A DNA stretch of 29,619 bases from a virus: IMG/VR virus record IMGVR_UViG_3300037541_000139, positions 1 through 29,619 of that record, one strand, 5' to 3'. The notes under the pieces are model-generated. The model was given only the letters and a program-made list of their open reading frames with translations. It did no database searches and was not told where the DNA came from. The stretch's first letter is position 1; the number at the start of each line of letters is the position of its first letter. This document shows, piece by piece, positions 7,383-29,619 of this stretch. Position numbers and translations under genes: made by a program.

Positions 7383-8303
7383 TCAGTTTATAGGGGTGGT
7401 GTCAATGCGTTTGGCTTTGATTAACGCTAGGTCGTTTTCTGTTGGTCTTGCATCCTTTCCTGCGTAAGTAAAAGTGTAACCTTTTAGTTTTCCTTTGCTT
7501 ATTGGGTTGCCCGAAGCTAAGGCGCGCCGAAGCGTTGGCATAGGTATGTCATAGCATGAAAGTACTTCTGTAAGACTAGGAAACAGGATACCTTCCGGCA
7601 TAGAAAAAACTGGCTTTCTCATTTTTAACTTAGTTTCGTCTGTATGTTTCTTACCCAAAAAAGATTTATGGCTGCGGCCTTCCTCAATATTTCGCCTGAT
7701 TTTTTTCAAGCCTTCTTCTGACACTTTCCTACCTGGTGCTTTTGGTTTGCCTCTTTGTGCATCACCAATCTTTTTCTTTACTTCTTCGGAAAGGGTCTTG
7801 CCGTAGCGGTAATGATTCTCGCCGCTTGTTGGTGTTCTGTTTTGCCTTATCTTTTGACGAGTTTCTTCCGAATGTTTCTTGCCAACTCGAGGGTGATTAA
7901 AGTAGTCGGCTGCGTAAAAATCTTTAAGAGTCTTAGAGATTTGTTCTTTCTGGGATAGTCGCATTGTCCTGCCAAAATTAGGCGTTACCTCTGGCGGCGC
8001 ATTTCTCCAAGGGGCTTCAGATGTGTATCCGCTGTTATAGCAGTACTCTTTACCAACGTGTTGCACAAGATAGGTGTCTTCTATCAACTGTAGAGAATGC
8101 ACTTCTGCCACTTCTTCCACAACAACAAACTCAAATTTACTTTCGCCGTATTTGTTCCAAGACGCCTGAAGGTGTTTGCAATGATGTCGATTGCCTCTCA
8201 ACAACTTTCGATGCTGGCGAAATCTAACTTTTTTATTTGTCGTGCTTCCTATATAAAACTTGTTGTTTACAAGATTGATAATTTTGTAGATGACCTGCGA
8301 CAT
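7383..8303 (-). CDS. GIY-YIG homing endonuclease with NUMOD3-type repeats
   Basis: The 306-residue freestanding endonuclease has the GIY-YIG core at its N-terminus: IYKI at 5-8, YIGS at 17-20, catalytic-type R28 and H31 (RFRQH) and E75. The linker holds four NUMOD3-like DNA-binding repeats (GKKHSEETRQKIR, GKTLSEEVKKKI, GRKVSEEGLKKIR, GKKHTDETKLKMR). The C-terminus (LFPSLTEVLSCYDIPMPTLRRAL) resembles a NUMOD1/IENR1-type helix-turn-helix. AAGGAG lies six bases upstream of ATG 8303. The gene has its own promoter and follows the capsid terminator, so it looks like an inserted selfish cassette within the head operon. The function is well supported by family knowledge. Confidence 0.93.
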   Translation of the reverse strand: MSQVIYKIINLVNNKFYIGSTTNKKVRFRQHRKLLRGNRHHCKHLQASWNKYGESKFEFVVVEEVAEVHSLQLIEDTYLVQHVGKEYCYNSGYTSEAPWRNAPPEVTPNFGRTMRLSQKEQISKTLKDFYAADYFNHPRVGKKHSEETRQKIRQNRTPTSGENHYRYGKTLSEEVKKKIGDAQRGKPKAPGRKVSEEGLKKIRRNIEEGRSHKSFLGKKHTDETKLKMRKPVFSMPEGILFPSLTEVLSCYDIPMPTLRRALASGNPISKGKLKGYTFTYAGKDARPTENDLALIKAKRIDTTPIN

Positions 8304-8429: not shown

Positions 8430-9338
8430 TTATGCTCCGGGAGAACCGAAGATACCAAGCGGATCGCTCACTCCGAAGGAGTACCTCTCACGACTTTTAT
8501 ATCTGACATTCCCGGTGTCGAAGTCTCCATCCATTGACGTACTCAACGGTGTACGCACGAAGTGCTTCAGTCCGTTAGGAACATCGGTGGTGAGGAACCA
8601 GGCGTTGGTGTCAGTCAAGAAGTGATTGACTGTATAGCCTTCAGGGATTGAACCCATCATCTTCAGTGCATTCACATCGTTGTCTGCTGTAGCCACACGA
8701 AGCTCGGTTTGCAGCAAGCGGGTTGCTGTAAACATAAGATTCGGGGGGACTACCAACTTGCGTGGCTTGGCTGCGATCAACAGGCCACGTTCGTCGGTCC
8801 AGCCTGCGATTTGAATCACGGCGTTTTCCAACGACGTTTCATTCAAGTCAGCAGCGGTAGACGGCGTGTTGCTGTTGGTGCCACCAGAGATGAGGGGATG
8901 AGCTGTTGAGAACAAAGGCTGGCCGTCACCGTAGGTAACGACGGAATTAAAGCCGTTGTTCAGAACTGCTGCTGCCTTCACCTGTTTGGTGTAAGCCATG
9001 GCACGAGCCAGTGCTTTGGTGTAACGAGACGACAGGGTGTCGTACAGGTTATCTTCCACGGCCTCTTCGGTAATCGAAAAGCCCATAGCAATGGTTTCGT
9101 GGTTGTACCTTGCGGTCCATGCTTCTTGTGCGTTGTCGTATGCAATCGCACTACCTTCCGGTTTCACCGGTGCGGCACTAAAGCCTGACAGCTTGGTTTC
9201 CTCTTCGAAAGAACGTTCAGAAGATTCAGTTTCGTAAATCTCCTTATGCTCTTCACCATAACGAGCATACTCCAGACCGAACAAAGCGTTCAAGCCGGGG
9301 AGAAGCTCTTTCAGTAGTTGTGCGCGTGAAATAGCCAT
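8430..9338 (-). CDS. Major capsid protein
   Basis: 302 residues, full length for this type. It begins MAISRAQLLKELLPGLNALFGLEY. Motifs include YGEEHKEIYETESSERSFEEE, then WTARYNHETIAMGFSITEEAVEDN and YGDGQPLFSTAHPLISGG, followed by GLLIAAKPRKLVVPPNLMFTATRLLQ. I recognise this as a major capsid protein of the Mu gpT / HK97-fold group common in environmental phages. It lies downstream of scaffold and accessory head genes and directly before a strong terminator, as expected for the most abundant virion protein. AGGGG is placed near the start. Confidence is high from motif and context. Confidence 0.9.
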   Translation of the reverse strand: MAISRAQLLKELLPGLNALFGLEYARYGEEHKEIYETESSERSFEEETKLSGFSAAPVKPEGSAIAYDNAQEAWTARYNHETIAMGFSITEEAVEDNLYDTLSSRYTKALARAMAYTKQVKAAAVLNNGFNSVVTYGDGQPLFSTAHPLISGGTNSNTPSTAADLNETSLENAVIQIAGWTDERGLLIAAKPRKLVVPPNLMFTATRLLQTELRVATADNDVNALKMMGSIPEGYTVNHFLTDTNAWFLTTDVPNGLKHFVRTPLSTSMDGDFDTGNVRYKSRERYSFGVSDPLGIFGSPGA

Positions 9339-9350
9339 TTAAATATCCCC

Positions 9351-10220
9351 TTAAACGCCAGTTGCGAACTGGTAGCTGTGGTAGCCCTGGTTCCACTTAA
9401 CGAGGACTTCAGGATAACCAACGAAGGTTACGGTCTGTCCAGACGCTAAAGTGATTGCCGAAGCTAGGGTCACCGTCGTGCTGTTGACGTTTACAACGTA
9501 GTTGTATGAACCACTACGGAACGCACCAGCCGTTGCCGTAGGAGCAATGATTTGCATACCTGCTTGCAAACCAGTGACTGCCGATGCCAACGTGAGGGTG
9601 GTCGAAGAACCCGAAGTGCTACCCGTACCCGTAAGGGTATAAGCGGTTTCAGGAACGACTGCAACGATACGGAAAGGAAGCGCTGTCGTAACACGCTTGT
9701 TACCAGTACCGTTTGTTGGGTTGTCTGCCGAAACAGCCATGGCTGAGTTACCAGTGATAGTACTACCAGCAGTGCCGGTAACTGCATACACGTTAGTACC
9801 AACCAAACCAGTCGAAGCATAACCAATCGTGGTTGCTGTGTTAGACACAGAACTAGATTGACCAACCATGGCAACCTTAAAGACTGCCGAAGGATCATCC
9901 ACAACATAAGCTACTGCGTCATTGGCTGCGGTTGAAGCAGGCCAATACTGTGCGAACAGCTTTTGTCCAGTGGAAGGATTGGTATACGAGCAACCTACAA
10001 ATACCCCGATCTGACCGGCGCGAGCCGTTGTTGTGGTAGATGTAGACATACCCGTGATATTGATTGCACCACCCGAAAGCTCAACCAGATCACCATTAAA
10101 GATGCTCGTGGAATAAGCGTAAGGGATGGGAATCTGCCGAGTTGCTCCAGCATAGGGTAGGCCGTTTAGTTCGTTAATCGGCACAAAACCAAATGCGGAG
10201 CTGACAGTGGGATAAGCCAT
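9351..10220 (-). CDS. Head-associated structural protein (capsid decoration type)
   Basis: The 289-residue protein lies directly upstream of the capsid gene, with a 12-bp gap. Its N-terminus (FGFVPINELNGLPYAGATRQIPI, YSTSIFNGDLVELSGG, GQIGVFVGCSYTNPSTGQKLFAQYWP) and C-terminus (YPEVLVKWNQGYHSYQFATGV) form a pattern I recall from uncharacterised proteins always paired with this capsid type. Between them is a long Ser/Thr/Gly/Ala-rich insertion (residues about 120-265). A decoration or minor capsid role is inferred from adjacency and composition. Confidence 0.72.
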   Translation of the reverse strand: MAYPTVSSAFGFVPINELNGLPYAGATRQIPIPYAYSTSIFNGDLVELSGGAINITGMSTSTTTTARAGQIGVFVGCSYTNPSTGQKLFAQYWPASTAANDAVAYVVDDPSAVFKVAMVGQSSSVSNTATTIGYASTGLVGTNVYAVTGTAGSTITGNSAMAVSADNPTNGTGNKRVTTALPFRIVAVVPETAYTLTGTGSTSGSSTTLTLASAVTGLQAGMQIIAPTATAGAFRSGSYNYVVNVNSTTVTLASAITLASGQTVTFVGYPEVLVKWNQGYHSYQFATGV

Positions 10221-19381: not shown

Positions 19382-20050
19382 ATGAGACTTAGAGAAAATC
19401 ACCCGGCACTCGAACATGCCGTCACAATACACCCGAAGACGGTTAAACCCTTAGCCGACTATGCTTCGCGACTACTCAAGCCTGCTAGCGGCAATGCCAA
19501 GCTTGGTGCGGGTTCGAACGTCGTCACCAAGGGAAAATGGTCCGGCATGGCCATGTATACGTTAACCCTCGAGGAAAGGGCTACATGCTCCCGGACATGT
19601 CAGCAATGGGCTAGGTGTTTTGGGAACAATATGGGGTTCGCTCACCGTATCTCATCCGACGAACCCGAATTACTCGAAATGAGACTTAATGACGAACTCG
19701 AGCATTTGTCGCGGGTACATCCTGACGGTTTTGTAATCCGCCTTCATGTCTTAGGTGATTTTTATAGTCCGGAGTACGTAAACTTTTGGGCTAATGCCCT
19801 TCGGGCATACCCTGCACTACATGTCTTCGGGTACACCCATAGGACCGAAGGTCCGATCGCCGAAGCCATAGCCGAGAATTTGCAGACTGACCGAGCATGG
19901 ATCCGATGGTCCGACAAAGGCGGTGAAATGTCCGCTAATGTTCACGGCGAAGGTATAACATGCCCGGAGCAAACCGGGAAAACCTCCTCATGCCTGACAT
20001 GCGGGCTTTGTTGGACCACCACCAAGGCAATAGCCTTTATCGAGCATTAG
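19382..20050 (+). CDS. GP88-family phage protein (Cys-rich)
   Basis: The 222-residue protein carries the full GP88 pattern as I recall it (PF17338 from memory, named after mycobacteriophage gp88). It has LGAGSNVVTKGKWSG, then LTLEERATCSRTCQQWARCFGNNMGFAHR, IRLHVLGDFYSPEYVNFW, VFGYTHR and CPEQTGKTSSCLTCGLCW. Seven cysteines fall in two groups (69, 73, 79 and 194, 204, 207, 210), suggesting a metal or Fe-S site. No activity is known to me. RBS GGAG lies eleven bases upstream. It lies about 1.3 kb upstream of the dpdA-like gene on the same strand, so a link to nucleic-acid modification is possible but unproven. Confidence 0.8.
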   Translation: MRLRENHPALEHAVTIHPKTVKPLADYASRLLKPASGNAKLGAGSNVVTKGKWSGMAMYTLTLEERATCSRTCQQWARCFGNNMGFAHRISSDEPELLEMRLNDELEHLSRVHPDGFVIRLHVLGDFYSPEYVNFWANALRAYPALHVFGYTHRTEGPIAEAIAENLQTDRAWIRWSDKGGEMSANVHGEGITCPEQTGKTSSCLTCGLCWTTTKAIAFIEH

Positions 20051-20549: not shown

Positions 20550-20650
20550 ATCATCGCCAAAAGTACGCACTCGAAATGGCAGTTTACGAGCTGGTCAACG
20601 CCGTCCAATCTACCCGGGCAACCAACAATGGGGAACAATATGAATATTGA
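20543..20650 (+). CDS. Possible very small protein (35 aa)
   Basis: ATG 20543 to TGA 20648-20650 encodes MLDHRQKYALEMAVYELVNA followed by VQSTRATNNGEQYEY. GGAG lies six bases upstream. The overlap layout matches the neighbours, but length and composition give little independent support. It may instead be part of the leader of the next gene. Confidence 0.4.
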   Translation: MLDHRQKYALEMAVYELVNAVQSTRATNNGEQYEY

Positions 20651-21248
20651 GACATACCATGATCCTGATCGCGCAGGATTGAATGACGAACATCTGGACA
20701 ACACTTATCTGGCCGAGTCATTCCCAAACGCAAACAGTCCTGCTGAACTTTACCGACAGGTTTACAAATGGACTTCCTGTGGCGCATACCTCAGCGCCAG
20801 AATCAATTATTTTGAAACTATCGAGCCGGACGGATTCAACGATTACCCTTCAGACATCGAACGGTCTGAATGGGTTCATTGCGGCGAACTGCACAAGCTT
20901 GGGTCATGGAAAGACCTTGACGAGAAAGGCATCCTGATAACTGCGCTTTTGGTCGGTTCAATTGTCGAAGGCGTGGACTATGGTACGGACGATATCGAAC
21001 TTGAGATCAACCAACTAGACGAAGAACCAGACGACTTTCGCAAACGTTTTTATGCTGCGGTCGAAGAAGTAGAAAACCAAGCTTCAGATATCTGGAATAA
21101 CACGCATGGTTGCGAAGGTTGCGCGGCTCATTGGAGAGAAGAAGGGTTTGAAACAAACGAGTGGGGCGAAGCGATGGAAGGTTGCGACGCAATGACGCCT
21201 GTCTGGAAAGACTGCCCCGACTGCCAAGGCCACGGCACTATTATATGA
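20640..21248 (+). CDS. Conserved phage protein with C-terminal zinc-knuckle cysteines
   Basis: ATG 20640 is preferred because GGGGA sits about six bases upstream; ATG 20628 lacks an RBS. The 202-residue product has an acidic body (DDIELEINQLDEEPDDFRKRFYAAVEEVENQASDIW). Its C-terminus has NTHGCEGCAAHW and CPDCQGHGTII. The final C-x2-C-x-G-x-G resembles a DnaJ-type zinc motif and, with the C-x2-C before it, could bind one zinc ion. I recall similar unnamed proteins in phage early regions. No activity is assigned. Confidence 0.66.
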   Translation: MNIETYHDPDRAGLNDEHLDNTYLAESFPNANSPAELYRQVYKWTSCGAYLSARINYFETIEPDGFNDYPSDIERSEWVHCGELHKLGSWKDLDEKGILITALLVGSIVEGVDYGTDDIELEINQLDEEPDDFRKRFYAAVEEVENQASDIWNNTHGCEGCAAHWREEGFETNEWGEAMEGCDAMTPVWKDCPDCQGHGTII

Positions 21249-21257
21249 GGCACGAGA

Positions 21258-21356
21258 ATGAAACGTCTAACTGATCTGGTCTTAGACCTTGTTGTGATGG
21301 TTGTTTCCGGTGTTGCACTTGGTTGGATGATGGTGAAGTGGTGGTTTTCTGAATGA
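21258..21356 (+). CDS. Small single-span membrane peptide (32 aa)
   Basis: ATG 21258 (GAGG about eight bases upstream) encodes MKRLTDLVLDLVVMVVSGVA followed by LGWMMVKWWFSE. Most of it is one transmembrane segment with a Lys/Arg start and Trp-rich end. Its stop overlaps the ATG of the dpdA-like gene (ATGA), so the two are co-translated. It might assist the preQ0 transporter two genes down, which is speculation, or simply couple translation. Confidence 0.55.
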   Translation: MKRLTDLVLDLVVMVVSGVALGWMMVKWWFSE

Positions 21357-22081
21357 GGTTCTTCACTGGCTTGCATCACCCCGCAGACTCGAAACACTTT
21401 GAGTCTGCTTTCATTTCCGTAAACACCATACGGAATCGCAAAAGCCATTTTCCGGCTAACGACTGGATCATGGATTCAGGTGCATTCACTGAGGTGGTCA
21501 GACATGGGGGATACCGTTTCCCCGTGTCTGAATATGCCCATCACATCAAACGATTTTCTACCTGCGGCAACCTACTAGCCGCAGTGTCCCAGGATTTTAT
21601 GTGCGAAGCATTTGTCCTAAAAATGACCGGGAAAACCATACCCGAACATCAACGCATGACCATCGAACGCTACGACGAGCTGCTTCAACATGATGTTGGA
21701 GGTGTCTATATCATTCCGGTCCTGCAAGGGTACGACCCACAAGACTACGTCAATCACATACGCATGTACGGCGAACGCCTAAAGCAAGGCATGTGGGTCG
21801 GTGTGGGGTCCGTATGCAAACGCAACAGCAACATCGAATCCATCGAGCAAGTGCTACTCGCTATCAAAACCGAACGTCCCGATCTACGTCTTCACGGGTT
21901 TGGTGTGAAGACTACTGCCCTATCATCCGGGTTAGTCAGAGAATTGCTTTATACAGCAGACTCTATGGCATGGTCTTTTGCCGCTCGATACGAACGCCGC
22001 AACGGAAATGATTGGCGGGAAGCGAAAGTGTTTGAAGATCGCATCAATACCATGCAATATCAAAAGCCTTTGTTCATCTAG
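21353..22081 (+). CDS. dpdA: DpdA-like tRNA-guanine transglycosylase family protein (7-deazaguanine DNA modification)
   Basis: The 242-residue protein has the complete phage DpdA/TGT-like pattern. MDSGAFTEV at 40-48 matches the TGT DSGGF active-site motif. SQDFMCE is at 79-85, IIPVLQGYDPQDYV starts at 120, GVGSVCKR at 150-157 and HGFGVKTT at 181-188. ADSMAWSFAAR at 202-212 carries the likely nucleophile Asp203. By family knowledge, these enzymes replace guanine in DNA with a 7-deazaguanine such as preQ0, protecting phage DNA from host nucleases. The start overlaps the upstream membrane peptide (ATGA) and a preQ0-type transporter gene follows after 7 bp. DNA rather than tRNA as substrate is inferred from phage homologues. 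Confidence 0.82.
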   Translation: MRFFTGLHHPADSKHFESAFISVNTIRNRKSHFPANDWIMDSGAFTEVVRHGGYRFPVSEYAHHIKRFSTCGNLLAAVSQDFMCEAFVLKMTGKTIPEHQRMTIERYDELLQHDVGGVYIIPVLQGYDPQDYVNHIRMYGERLKQGMWVGVGSVCKRNSNIESIEQVLLAIKTERPDLRLHGFGVKTTALSSGLVRELLYTADSMAWSFAARYERRNGNDWREAKVFEDRINTMQYQKPLFI

Positions 22082-22088
22082 GATATTT

Positions 22089-22562
22089 ATGTACTTAGCG
22101 ATTGCCATCTACACCTTTGCCATGACGCTTGCCAACTTGAGTGTTGCGGCTTTCGGGCCTTCGGTTACACCGTTAAATGCTTTTCTGTTCATTGGTCTAG
22201 ACCTTACCCTTCGGGACTGGTTGCATGTGCGTCTTAAGTTTTGGCAGATGGGCATCTTGATTGCTGTTTCAGGACTTCTAACGTTGCTTCTGAACCCTGC
22301 GTCCGGTCTGATTGCCATCGCATCAGCAGTTGCTTTTACTGCTGCCGCTAGCGTGGATTGGGCAGTCTTCGCCAAGCTCCGTGGCAGTTGGTCTATCAGG
22401 GCCAACGCCAGTAATGTTGCCGGTGCTATGGTGGACTCACTTCTATTCCCGACAATTGCTTTTGGCGTGTTAATGCCACACATCATCGCCATGCAGTTTG
22501 CAGGCAAGGTTATTGGTGGCTTTCTTTGGTCGCTCATTTTGAAAGGCAACCATGAAGAATAA
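22089..22562 (+). CDS. yhhQ: YhhQ/VUT-family queuosine-precursor (preQ0) transporter
   Basis: 157 residues with several membrane segments: MYLAIAIYTFAMTLANLSVAAFG, then GILIAVSGLLTLLLNPASG, GLIAIASAVAFTAAASVDW and IIAMQFAGKVIGGFLWSLIL. LNAFLFIGLDLTLRDWLH and RANASNVAGAMVDSLLFP are patterns I recognise from the VUT/YhhQ (DUF165) family. Bacterial YhhQ imports preQ0 and preQ1. ATG 22089 has AGGA five bases upstream; the frame stays open further back inside dpdA but without a start signal. Shorter than typical bacterial YhhQ, as in phage versions. Pairing with dpdA strongly suggests supply of preQ0 for DNA modification. Confidence 0.82.
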   Translation: MYLAIAIYTFAMTLANLSVAAFGPSVTPLNAFLFIGLDLTLRDWLHVRLKFWQMGILIAVSGLLTLLLNPASGLIAIASAVAFTAAASVDWAVFAKLRGSWSIRANASNVAGAMVDSLLFPTIAFGVLMPHIIAMQFAGKVIGGFLWSLILKGNHEE

Positions 22563-22752
22563 GACGATGTTCGCCATCTATTTGATGGAAGATGAATCCG
22601 GATTTGTGCGGGTCAGTGCCGACCATTACGGCCCAGGCGAGGCGAGTTATTCCCTTGGTATGGAAATGCTCATGTTCCTGAAGCATACCGAAAGGGAAAA
22701 CCCCTCCCACATGAAAGTTGAAGGGGTCTTTTATGCTTTACAAACGCAGTGA
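22552..22752 (+). CDS. Hypothetical protein (66 aa)
   Basis: ATG 22552 overlaps the transporter by 11 bp. The product MKNKTMFAIYLMEDESGFVR continues VSADHYGPGEASYSLGMEML and ends VEGVFYALQTQ. No family is recognised. It is the last gene of the rightward group; its final 15 bp overlap the end of the convergent primase-like gene, and a possible bidirectional hairpin lies within it. Confidence 0.6.
   Translation: MKNKTMFAIYLMEDESGFVRVSADHYGPGEASYSLGMEMLMFLKHTERENPSHMKVEGVFYALQTQ
22697..22732. terminator. Candidate bidirectional terminator at convergent gene ends
   Basis: AAAACCCCT (22697-22705) can pair with AGGGGTcTTTT (22722-22732) through a six-base G/C core with one bulged C and a 16-base loop. 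It is followed by T-rich sequence in the plus direction and TTTTCCC in the minus direction. It lies inside the last codons of the rightward gene, 7-41 bp beyond the primase-like stop on the other strand. Confidence 0.42.
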
Positions 22753-29340: not shown

Positions 29341-29619
29341 AGAAGCTATTGAAGAAGCGATAGAAGTGCTGGAGGATGCAAGCGCAGAGATGCTGGCGGA
29401 AACAGGCGATGAAAATTACTACAGCGAAGCCATTGCCGTTTTACGCCAAGCACTTGTCGATGCCGACGACACATCACAAGAACGTGTTGATGAAATCGTA
29501 AAAGCCTTAGTGCTGGCTGATGCGCTAGAAGAACTTGACGTGCAATTCAGCCACACGGGTCTATGCGGAGAAGCCGCCGACGAACTGCGCCGATTGCATG
29601 TATGGGAAAAGGCTTACGA
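29333..29619 (+). CDS. Helical acidic hypothetical protein, 3' end beyond window
   Basis: From ATG 29333 the frame stays open to the right edge, 95 codons. The product begins MDREAIEEAIEVLEDASAEM and continues LAETGDENYYSEAIAVLRQA, then a second helical unit ends AADELRRLHVWEKAY. It is composed of amphipathic acidic helices with two similar A-E-VLR or AADELRRL stretches. It overlaps the preceding gene by 8 bp with AAG/AGAAGA upstream. No family is recognised, and the C-terminus is missing. Confidence 0.6.
   Translation, partial: MDREAIEEAIEVLEDASAEMLAETGDENYYSEAIAVLRQALVDADDTSQERVDEIVKALVLADALEELDVQFSHTGLCGEAADELRRLHVWEKAY

Follow-up and report, generated by a model that had tools for sequence, protein, structure and literature searches.

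Gene layout at the locus and in sister phages

The stretch of viral DNA analysed here, referred to as the window, is an IMG/VR virus record of 29,619 bp. It is probably a genome fragment, so that genes missing from the window alone say nothing about the complete genome. Besides the genes considered below, it encodes a terminase, a portal protein, a major head protein, a helicase and a primase. The initial annotation had described three ORFs, in which a peptide gene overlaps a DpdA gene that is followed after 7 bp by a transporter gene, and this layout was found again at exactly the same positions:

21258..21356, plus strand: gene for a 32-aa single-helix membrane peptide, its stop overlapping the DpdA start (ATGA); lineage-restricted
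21353..22081, plus strand: DpdA-type guanine transglycosylase of the phrog_1279 subfamily, 242 aa (Pfam DpdA, phrog_1279, AF2, Foldseek)
22082..22088, plus strand: intergenic gap of 7 bp, the left junction of the transporter presence/absence difference (alignment with sister phages L014-L019)
22089..22562, plus strand: short VUT/QPTR-type membrane transporter (phrog_4899), 157 aa (Pfam Vut_1, phrog_4899, AF2)
22552..22752, plus strand: next ORF, 66 aa, whose ATG falls in the final codons of the transporter; it marks the right-hand junction of the presence/absence difference (sequence and alignment with sister phages)

An AGGA motif lies upstream of the transporter ATG. No direct DNA relatives of the window were found among phage isolates, and a Burkholderiales host is hinted at by the relatives of the transporter. 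Just upstream of the cassette, positions 20628-21248 hold an ORF of 206 aa that belongs to no known family and is precisely missing from the sisters L014 and L015; a gene for a GP88-family protein with cysteine motifs (Pfam PF17338) is located upstream at 19382-20050, and a homing-endonuclease-like gene (phrog_314) adjoins the major head protein gene on the minus strand at 7383-8303. The final 119 bp of the window (29501-29619) are 100% identical to positions 8631-8749 of L053, an otherwise different phage carrying a DpdA of another subfamily (B, below) paired with a VUT transporter, and 98% identical to the sister L018, reflecting either a recent exchange or a mosaic gene held in common.

Six sister phages (L014-L019) are colinear with the window over up to about 17 kb and encode DpdA proteins 92-99% identical to that of the window. 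In all six, the next gene starts directly after the DpdA stop and the transporter is precisely missing. A Vut_1 search of the records of L015 (58.4 kb), L019 (60.9 kb), L018 (29.2 kb) and L017 (16.9 kb) likewise gave no match. As the sisters keep a near-identical DpdA, the transporter is an accessory on which the enzyme does not depend, and its distribution can be explained either by one gain in the lineage of the window or by repeated loss.

The 32-aa peptide is identical in L014-L016, where the DNA differs only by synonymous changes, and L017 shows one conservative change (V to I). This retention of the protein identifies it as a real gene. The suggestion that it could be a new accessory part of the system did not hold up: in a tblastn search over all loci it was found only in L014-L017, with a diverged form in L018 and L019, and the small ORFs upstream of VUT in phage isolates are not hydrophobic. 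The peptide was accordingly rejected as a general accessory part, and we assign it no place in the mechanism. In L018 and L019, a GC-rich hairpin followed by a T-run (CCCCCGAAAGGGGGTTTTT) lies between the diverged small peptide and DpdA, at most 30 bp before the latter, which suggests a transcriptional coupling different from that in the window.

The DpdA-type enzyme and its short VUT-type neighbour

The window enzyme is a member of the DpdA/TGT superfamily, in line with its first description as a DpdA-like TGT homologue. It matches the Pfam DpdA family PF23859 (E 1.9e-36, 126 bits against a cut-off of 27) and phrog_1279, annotated as queuine tRNA-ribosyltransferase (2.5e-61), and TGT models are absent among its Pfam matches. 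Its subfamily is also that of the DpdAs in 390 mycobacteriophage records. A TGT barrel and intact active-site aspartates had been named in advance as checks on the assignment, and both were recovered. The AF2 model, built from a 25-sequence alignment (pLDDT 92.8, pTM 0.90), predicts a TGT-type (beta/alpha) barrel, for which Foldseek returned 7owz, 7ui4 and many TGTs (E 7e-6 to 1e-4, TM about 0.6). The best solved matches are tRNA-guanine transglycosylases, and the second is 7ui4, the DNA preQ0 insertase DpdA (E 9.8e-6). Across 25 relatives D41 (in DSGAF), D81, E85, H99, H181 (HGFGVK) and D203 (ADSMAW) are invariant; D41, D81, D203 and H181 were equated with TGT residues by motif order and strand ends rather than by superposed coordinates.

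The YhhQ/VUT-like character proposed for the neighbouring protein is borne out at the level of the superfamily. The protein matches Pfam Vut_1 (E 2.8e-10, 41 bits, cut-off 27) and phrog_4899 (2.7e-35), a diverse family listed in PHROGs with function unknown, but falls below the cut-offs of the NCBIfam YhhQ models PRK11212 (23.8 against 252 bits) and TIGR00697 (21.6 against 51). Since it passes Vut_1 and lies far below the YhhQ thresholds, it is named here a short QPTR/YhhQ-superfamily member and not YhhQ. The AF2 model (pLDDT 88.7) has six predicted transmembrane helices. A fold search with this model gave no significant match; the best-superposing structures were ECF S-components (TmRibU, TM 0.60, E > 1), a resemblance of the predicted fold that may serve as a lead only. 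A search of the sequences of solved structures returned nothing useful for either protein. We know of no assay for any short phrog_4899-type transporter.

With E. coli YhhQ (QPTR/COG1738) the window protein shares the Vut_1 superfamily, the six proposed transmembrane helices and a genetic link to Q precursors, but it is shorter (157 aa against 221 model positions) in addition to scoring below the YhhQ models. E. coli YhhQ is required for uptake of preQ0 and preQ1 (PMC5372724), and QPTR members vary in substrate (PMC11130926).

The fold raises the question of the nucleic acid that is acted upon. As its resemblance to tRNA TGTs is no weaker than that to DpdA, the pair might serve RNA, with a compact phage TGT placing an imported Q precursor into tRNA and so tuning translation during infection. 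This would suit a transporter family best known for tRNA queuosine, as well as the little or no modification seen in the DNA of phages with DpdA but without synthesis genes. However, the enzyme lies far above the Pfam DpdA cut-off while TGT models are not matched, it has 242 aa compared with 360-390 aa for the aligned TGTs, and its C-terminus contains no cysteines. Further, the related phrog_887 includes the DpdA of phage 9g, and this protein is a member of the family for which preQ0 introduction into DNA has been demonstrated (PMC6884629). We consider an RNA target quite improbable and base insertion into DNA the better account of what the window DpdA would do.

Linkage of transporter and enzyme across viruses

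Viral contigs were fetched by similarity to the transporter only, as one set of 80 nearest the window VUT and another 80 from a more distant query (160 in total), and DpdA was then sought with purpose-built profiles, that for the usual VUT partners being seeded from PEAT2 and its relatives. A DpdA of subfamily A or B was present within 1 kb and on the same strand in 80/80 contigs of the first set and 71/80 of the second, i.e. in 151 of the 160. Among the nine unpaired contigs, three (L132, L185 and L208) carry a third TGT-like protein, phrog_15826, three (L130, L189 and L197) end at the contig edge, and three (L191, L192 and L195) had no TGT-family neighbour that could be found. Grouping at 90% identity gave 65 clusters, and such a neighbour was present in 62 of them (exceptions: L130, L191 and L195). 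The median distance between the matched VUT and enzyme domains was 78 bp. In contrast, only 5 of 48 cellular loci with related VUTs (L361, L370, L373, L380 and L385) had an adjacent match to the DpdA profiles.

Similarly, VUT was found in 40 phage records, with a TGT-family gene close by in 32 according to HMM searches or coordinates. The two genes adjoin in PEAT2, Flyfo, Opt-719, AB3P2, LHE71, Phc, RCIP0319 and phiLM21 and in 12 of 12 records of Fishburnevirus-type mycobacteriophages, and they lie near each other in Arthrobacter phage Aoka. Seven mEp021-type records, of which mEp021 itself was inspected, and the unannotated faecal contig L412 seemingly have no TGT-family neighbour. In mEp021 (L006:5959-7226) the VUT gene is flanked by the genes for a DUF6378 protein and for a DNA methyltransferase, and an N6-adenine methyltransferase is encoded further upstream. 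VUT–DpdA adjacency is thus near-universal among VUT-bearing phages.

The partners of VUT belong to three TGT-like subfamilies, namely phrog_1279 (A, that of the window), phrog_887 (B, that of the phage 9g DpdA) and phrog_15826 (C). Their profiles align with an identical motif order (A with B, E 7e-8; B with C, E 4e-4), and the subfamily-B profile also detects C at about 1e-7. Genes of phrog_15826 lie beside VUT at L408:3491-4102, L409:3766-4392, L132:3415-4005 and L208:111-788; the family is listed with unknown function, and some annotators name its mycobacteriophage and Arthrobacter members DpdA-like. VUT is present in 51/80 subfamily-B loci compared with 5/92 subfamily-A loci, the latter five including L039, whose VUT adjoins a separate B gene. 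A tie between VUT and the DpdA subfamily of the window was considered and rejected on these counts, the usual partner being phrog_887. L039 itself carries two DpdAs, one of subfamily B that is paired with VUT and one of subfamily A that lies 7 kb from this pair and has no VUT (1466-2643 and 9327-9995).

In the VUT tree, the window transporter is nested among B-partnered VUTs and groups with those of L048 and L053, both B-partnered (SH-aLRT 95). Because the tree rests on few columns and leaves 61 of its 130 inner branches open, only changes on supported branches were counted; pairing with subfamily A requires at least seven. Judged from this count, the pairing of VUT with subfamily A arose at least seven times.

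Repeated pairing bears on whether the adjacency in the window is simply that of a passenger, a mobile single gene that landed beside DpdA with no functional linkage. The clean gene-sized presence or absence among the sisters would fit such a gene, other single ORFs such as 20628-21248 come and go in these phages, and DpdA without VUT is the rule in subfamily A. On the other hand, phage VUT genes without a TGT-family gene nearby are very rare, and VUT came to be paired with subfamily A repeatedly. Moreover, the window VUT shares 79% of its residues but only 71% of its bases with that of L048, an excess of residue over base identity which indicates that the protein is kept by selection. A mere passenger is therefore highly improbable, and a functional pairing of VUT and DpdA is the reading pursued below.

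Probable salvage of a 7-deazaguanine base

The initial annotation had noted no FolE, QueC, QueD or QueE homologue, and this absence extends beyond the window to relatives of 58-61 kb. FolE, QueC, QueD, QueE and QueF were not detected in the colinear sisters L015 (58.4 kb) and L019 (60.9 kb). Neither QueC nor QueD was found in the window or in 36 related DpdA/VUT records, except for a sub-cut-off QueC fragment in G008, and FolE, QueE and QueF were missing from the window and 25 related records. In phage 9g, used as a positive control, FolE, QueD, QueE and QueC were all detected; a QueF match overlaps its FolE gene and was not counted as QueF.

Chromosomal relatives of the transporter point to its substrate. 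A QueC-type motif occurs close to VUT in eight of the 48 cellular loci, and Pfam verifies QueC in five of these. In the proteobacterial contigs L363-L366 a short VUT, 67-72% identical to that of the window, follows queC directly, and in L364 (3245-5622) the gene order is queC-VUT-queD. To judge from this gene order, the short VUTs of L363-L366 are probably under-annotated Q-precursor transporters. A genetic linkage to Q-precursor metabolism of the QPTR type is thus found twice over, with DpdA in phages and with queC or queD in chromosomal relatives. Since these relatives adjoin queC and E. coli depends on YhhQ to salvage preQ0 and preQ1, we infer that the window VUT carries a Q-precursor base, which is most likely, though not certainly, preQ0.

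QueC was encoded in 31 of 31 searched cellular genomes carrying related transporters, so that a host lacking preQ0 synthesis is not a requirement; the idea that the host must be unable to make preQ0 is not supported. It follows that import would often be redundant, and DpdA may instead use host preQ0, with VUT enlarging the pool or switching the base (to preQ1 or queuine) and hence deciding which modification is made and not whether one is made. The presence of QueC in those genomes agrees with this, as do the retention of DpdA by sister phages without VUT, the different substrates of QPTR members (PMC11130926) and the diversity of phrog_4899 proteins. It fits poorly with the mycobacteriophages that have VUT together with phrog_15826, whose host genus is described as being without these genes (PMC6884629); for them, the base must come from outside. 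We regard such a supplementary role as unlikely in general, and supply of the base by import as the preferred account.

In the proposed mechanism, a tailed phage salvages bases with a cassette of two genes, one for a small VUT-type transporter and one for a DpdA-type transglycosylase. Through VUT, the infected cell would take up a 7-deazaguanine as the free base, which is most likely preQ0 or a closely related compound. DpdA would then swap the imported base for guanine in phage DNA by the base-exchange reaction of TGTs, and the modified DNA would look altered to host nucleases. The transporter would be an optional booster, with sister phages that lack it relying on the host's own base pool. 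That the pair salvages some 7-deazaguanine base is likely. The whole chain, from uptake through replacement of G in the DNA to protection, is, on balance, probable; we infer the transport direction, the exact base, DNA rather than RNA as the target and the protective benefit. The salvage strategy put forward in the initial annotation thus stands in its import logic, which is well supported by the near-universal VUT–DpdA adjacency, the chromosomal relatives beside queC and the lack of synthesis genes, while its two specifics, preQ0 and insertion into DNA, are less firm.

Salvage by phages with DpdA only is an earlier proposal and not new. Hutinet et al. (2019) described 76 phages with DpdA and without synthesis genes, the largest DpdA phage group, and proposed host supply or uptake for them (PMC6884629). 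They also noted YhhQ in some phages, uncorrelated with any phage group (PMC6884629). No report of the tight, repeated linkage of transporter and enzyme was found in the literature, judged on incomplete coverage. Like the window, the DpdA-only phages Salmonella 7-11, Mycobacterium Orion and Pantoea MED16 have DpdA without preQ0/G+ synthesis genes, but the window operon includes a transporter gene; MED16, with a subfamily-B DpdA, has no VUT annotated beside it. No modification was found in Orion (PMC6884629), while about 0.13% of G was modified as dADG in MED16 and about 0.02% of G in 7-11 (PMC6884629, PMC8306585), so that support for such DpdAs being functional in vivo is weak.

Other known systems resemble the window in part. 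The 7-deazaguanine pathways of phages 9g and CAjan likewise involve a DpdA homologue in a tailed phage, but 9g has FolE, QueD, QueE and QueC beside DpdA and the window lacks all four. Bacterial dpd islands with YhhQ, which is present in about 9% of such islands (PMC11888242), also place DpdA near a preQ0 transporter. They consist, however, of dpdA-C and restriction genes, whereas the window holds a compact phage pair with no dpd partners noticed nearby. In the haloviruses HCTV-1 and HCTV-16, a virus-encoded YhhQ has been linked to 7-deazaguanine DNA modification (PMC8651126); they encode a YhhQ-type transporter as the window does but, unlike it, belong to a group with the preQ0/G+ pathway.

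The finding that DpdA-only phages were unmodified or barely modified had left the activity of their enzymes open. A tightly linked transporter suggests a directly testable answer, namely that they may be short of base in laboratory media. The question is experimentally tractable with VUT-bearing isolates (LHE71 and Lg3 in E. coli; GreaseLightnin and Ksquared in M. smegmatis), as well as with sister phages that do or do not carry VUT. As mycobacteria are described as being without these genes, the VUT-bearing mycobacteriophages provide the cleanest test of import. For the protein families concerned, the analysis assigns a likely function to phrog_4899 and places phrog_15826 as a third TGT/DpdA-like family. 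More broadly, with the chances evenly balanced, the pair may represent a portable 'import and insert' cassette in which a single family of transporters has teamed up many times with TGT-type enzymes of three or more subfamilies, and by which phages would modify their DNA with environmental bases, even in hosts such as mycobacteria that are described as incapable of producing them.
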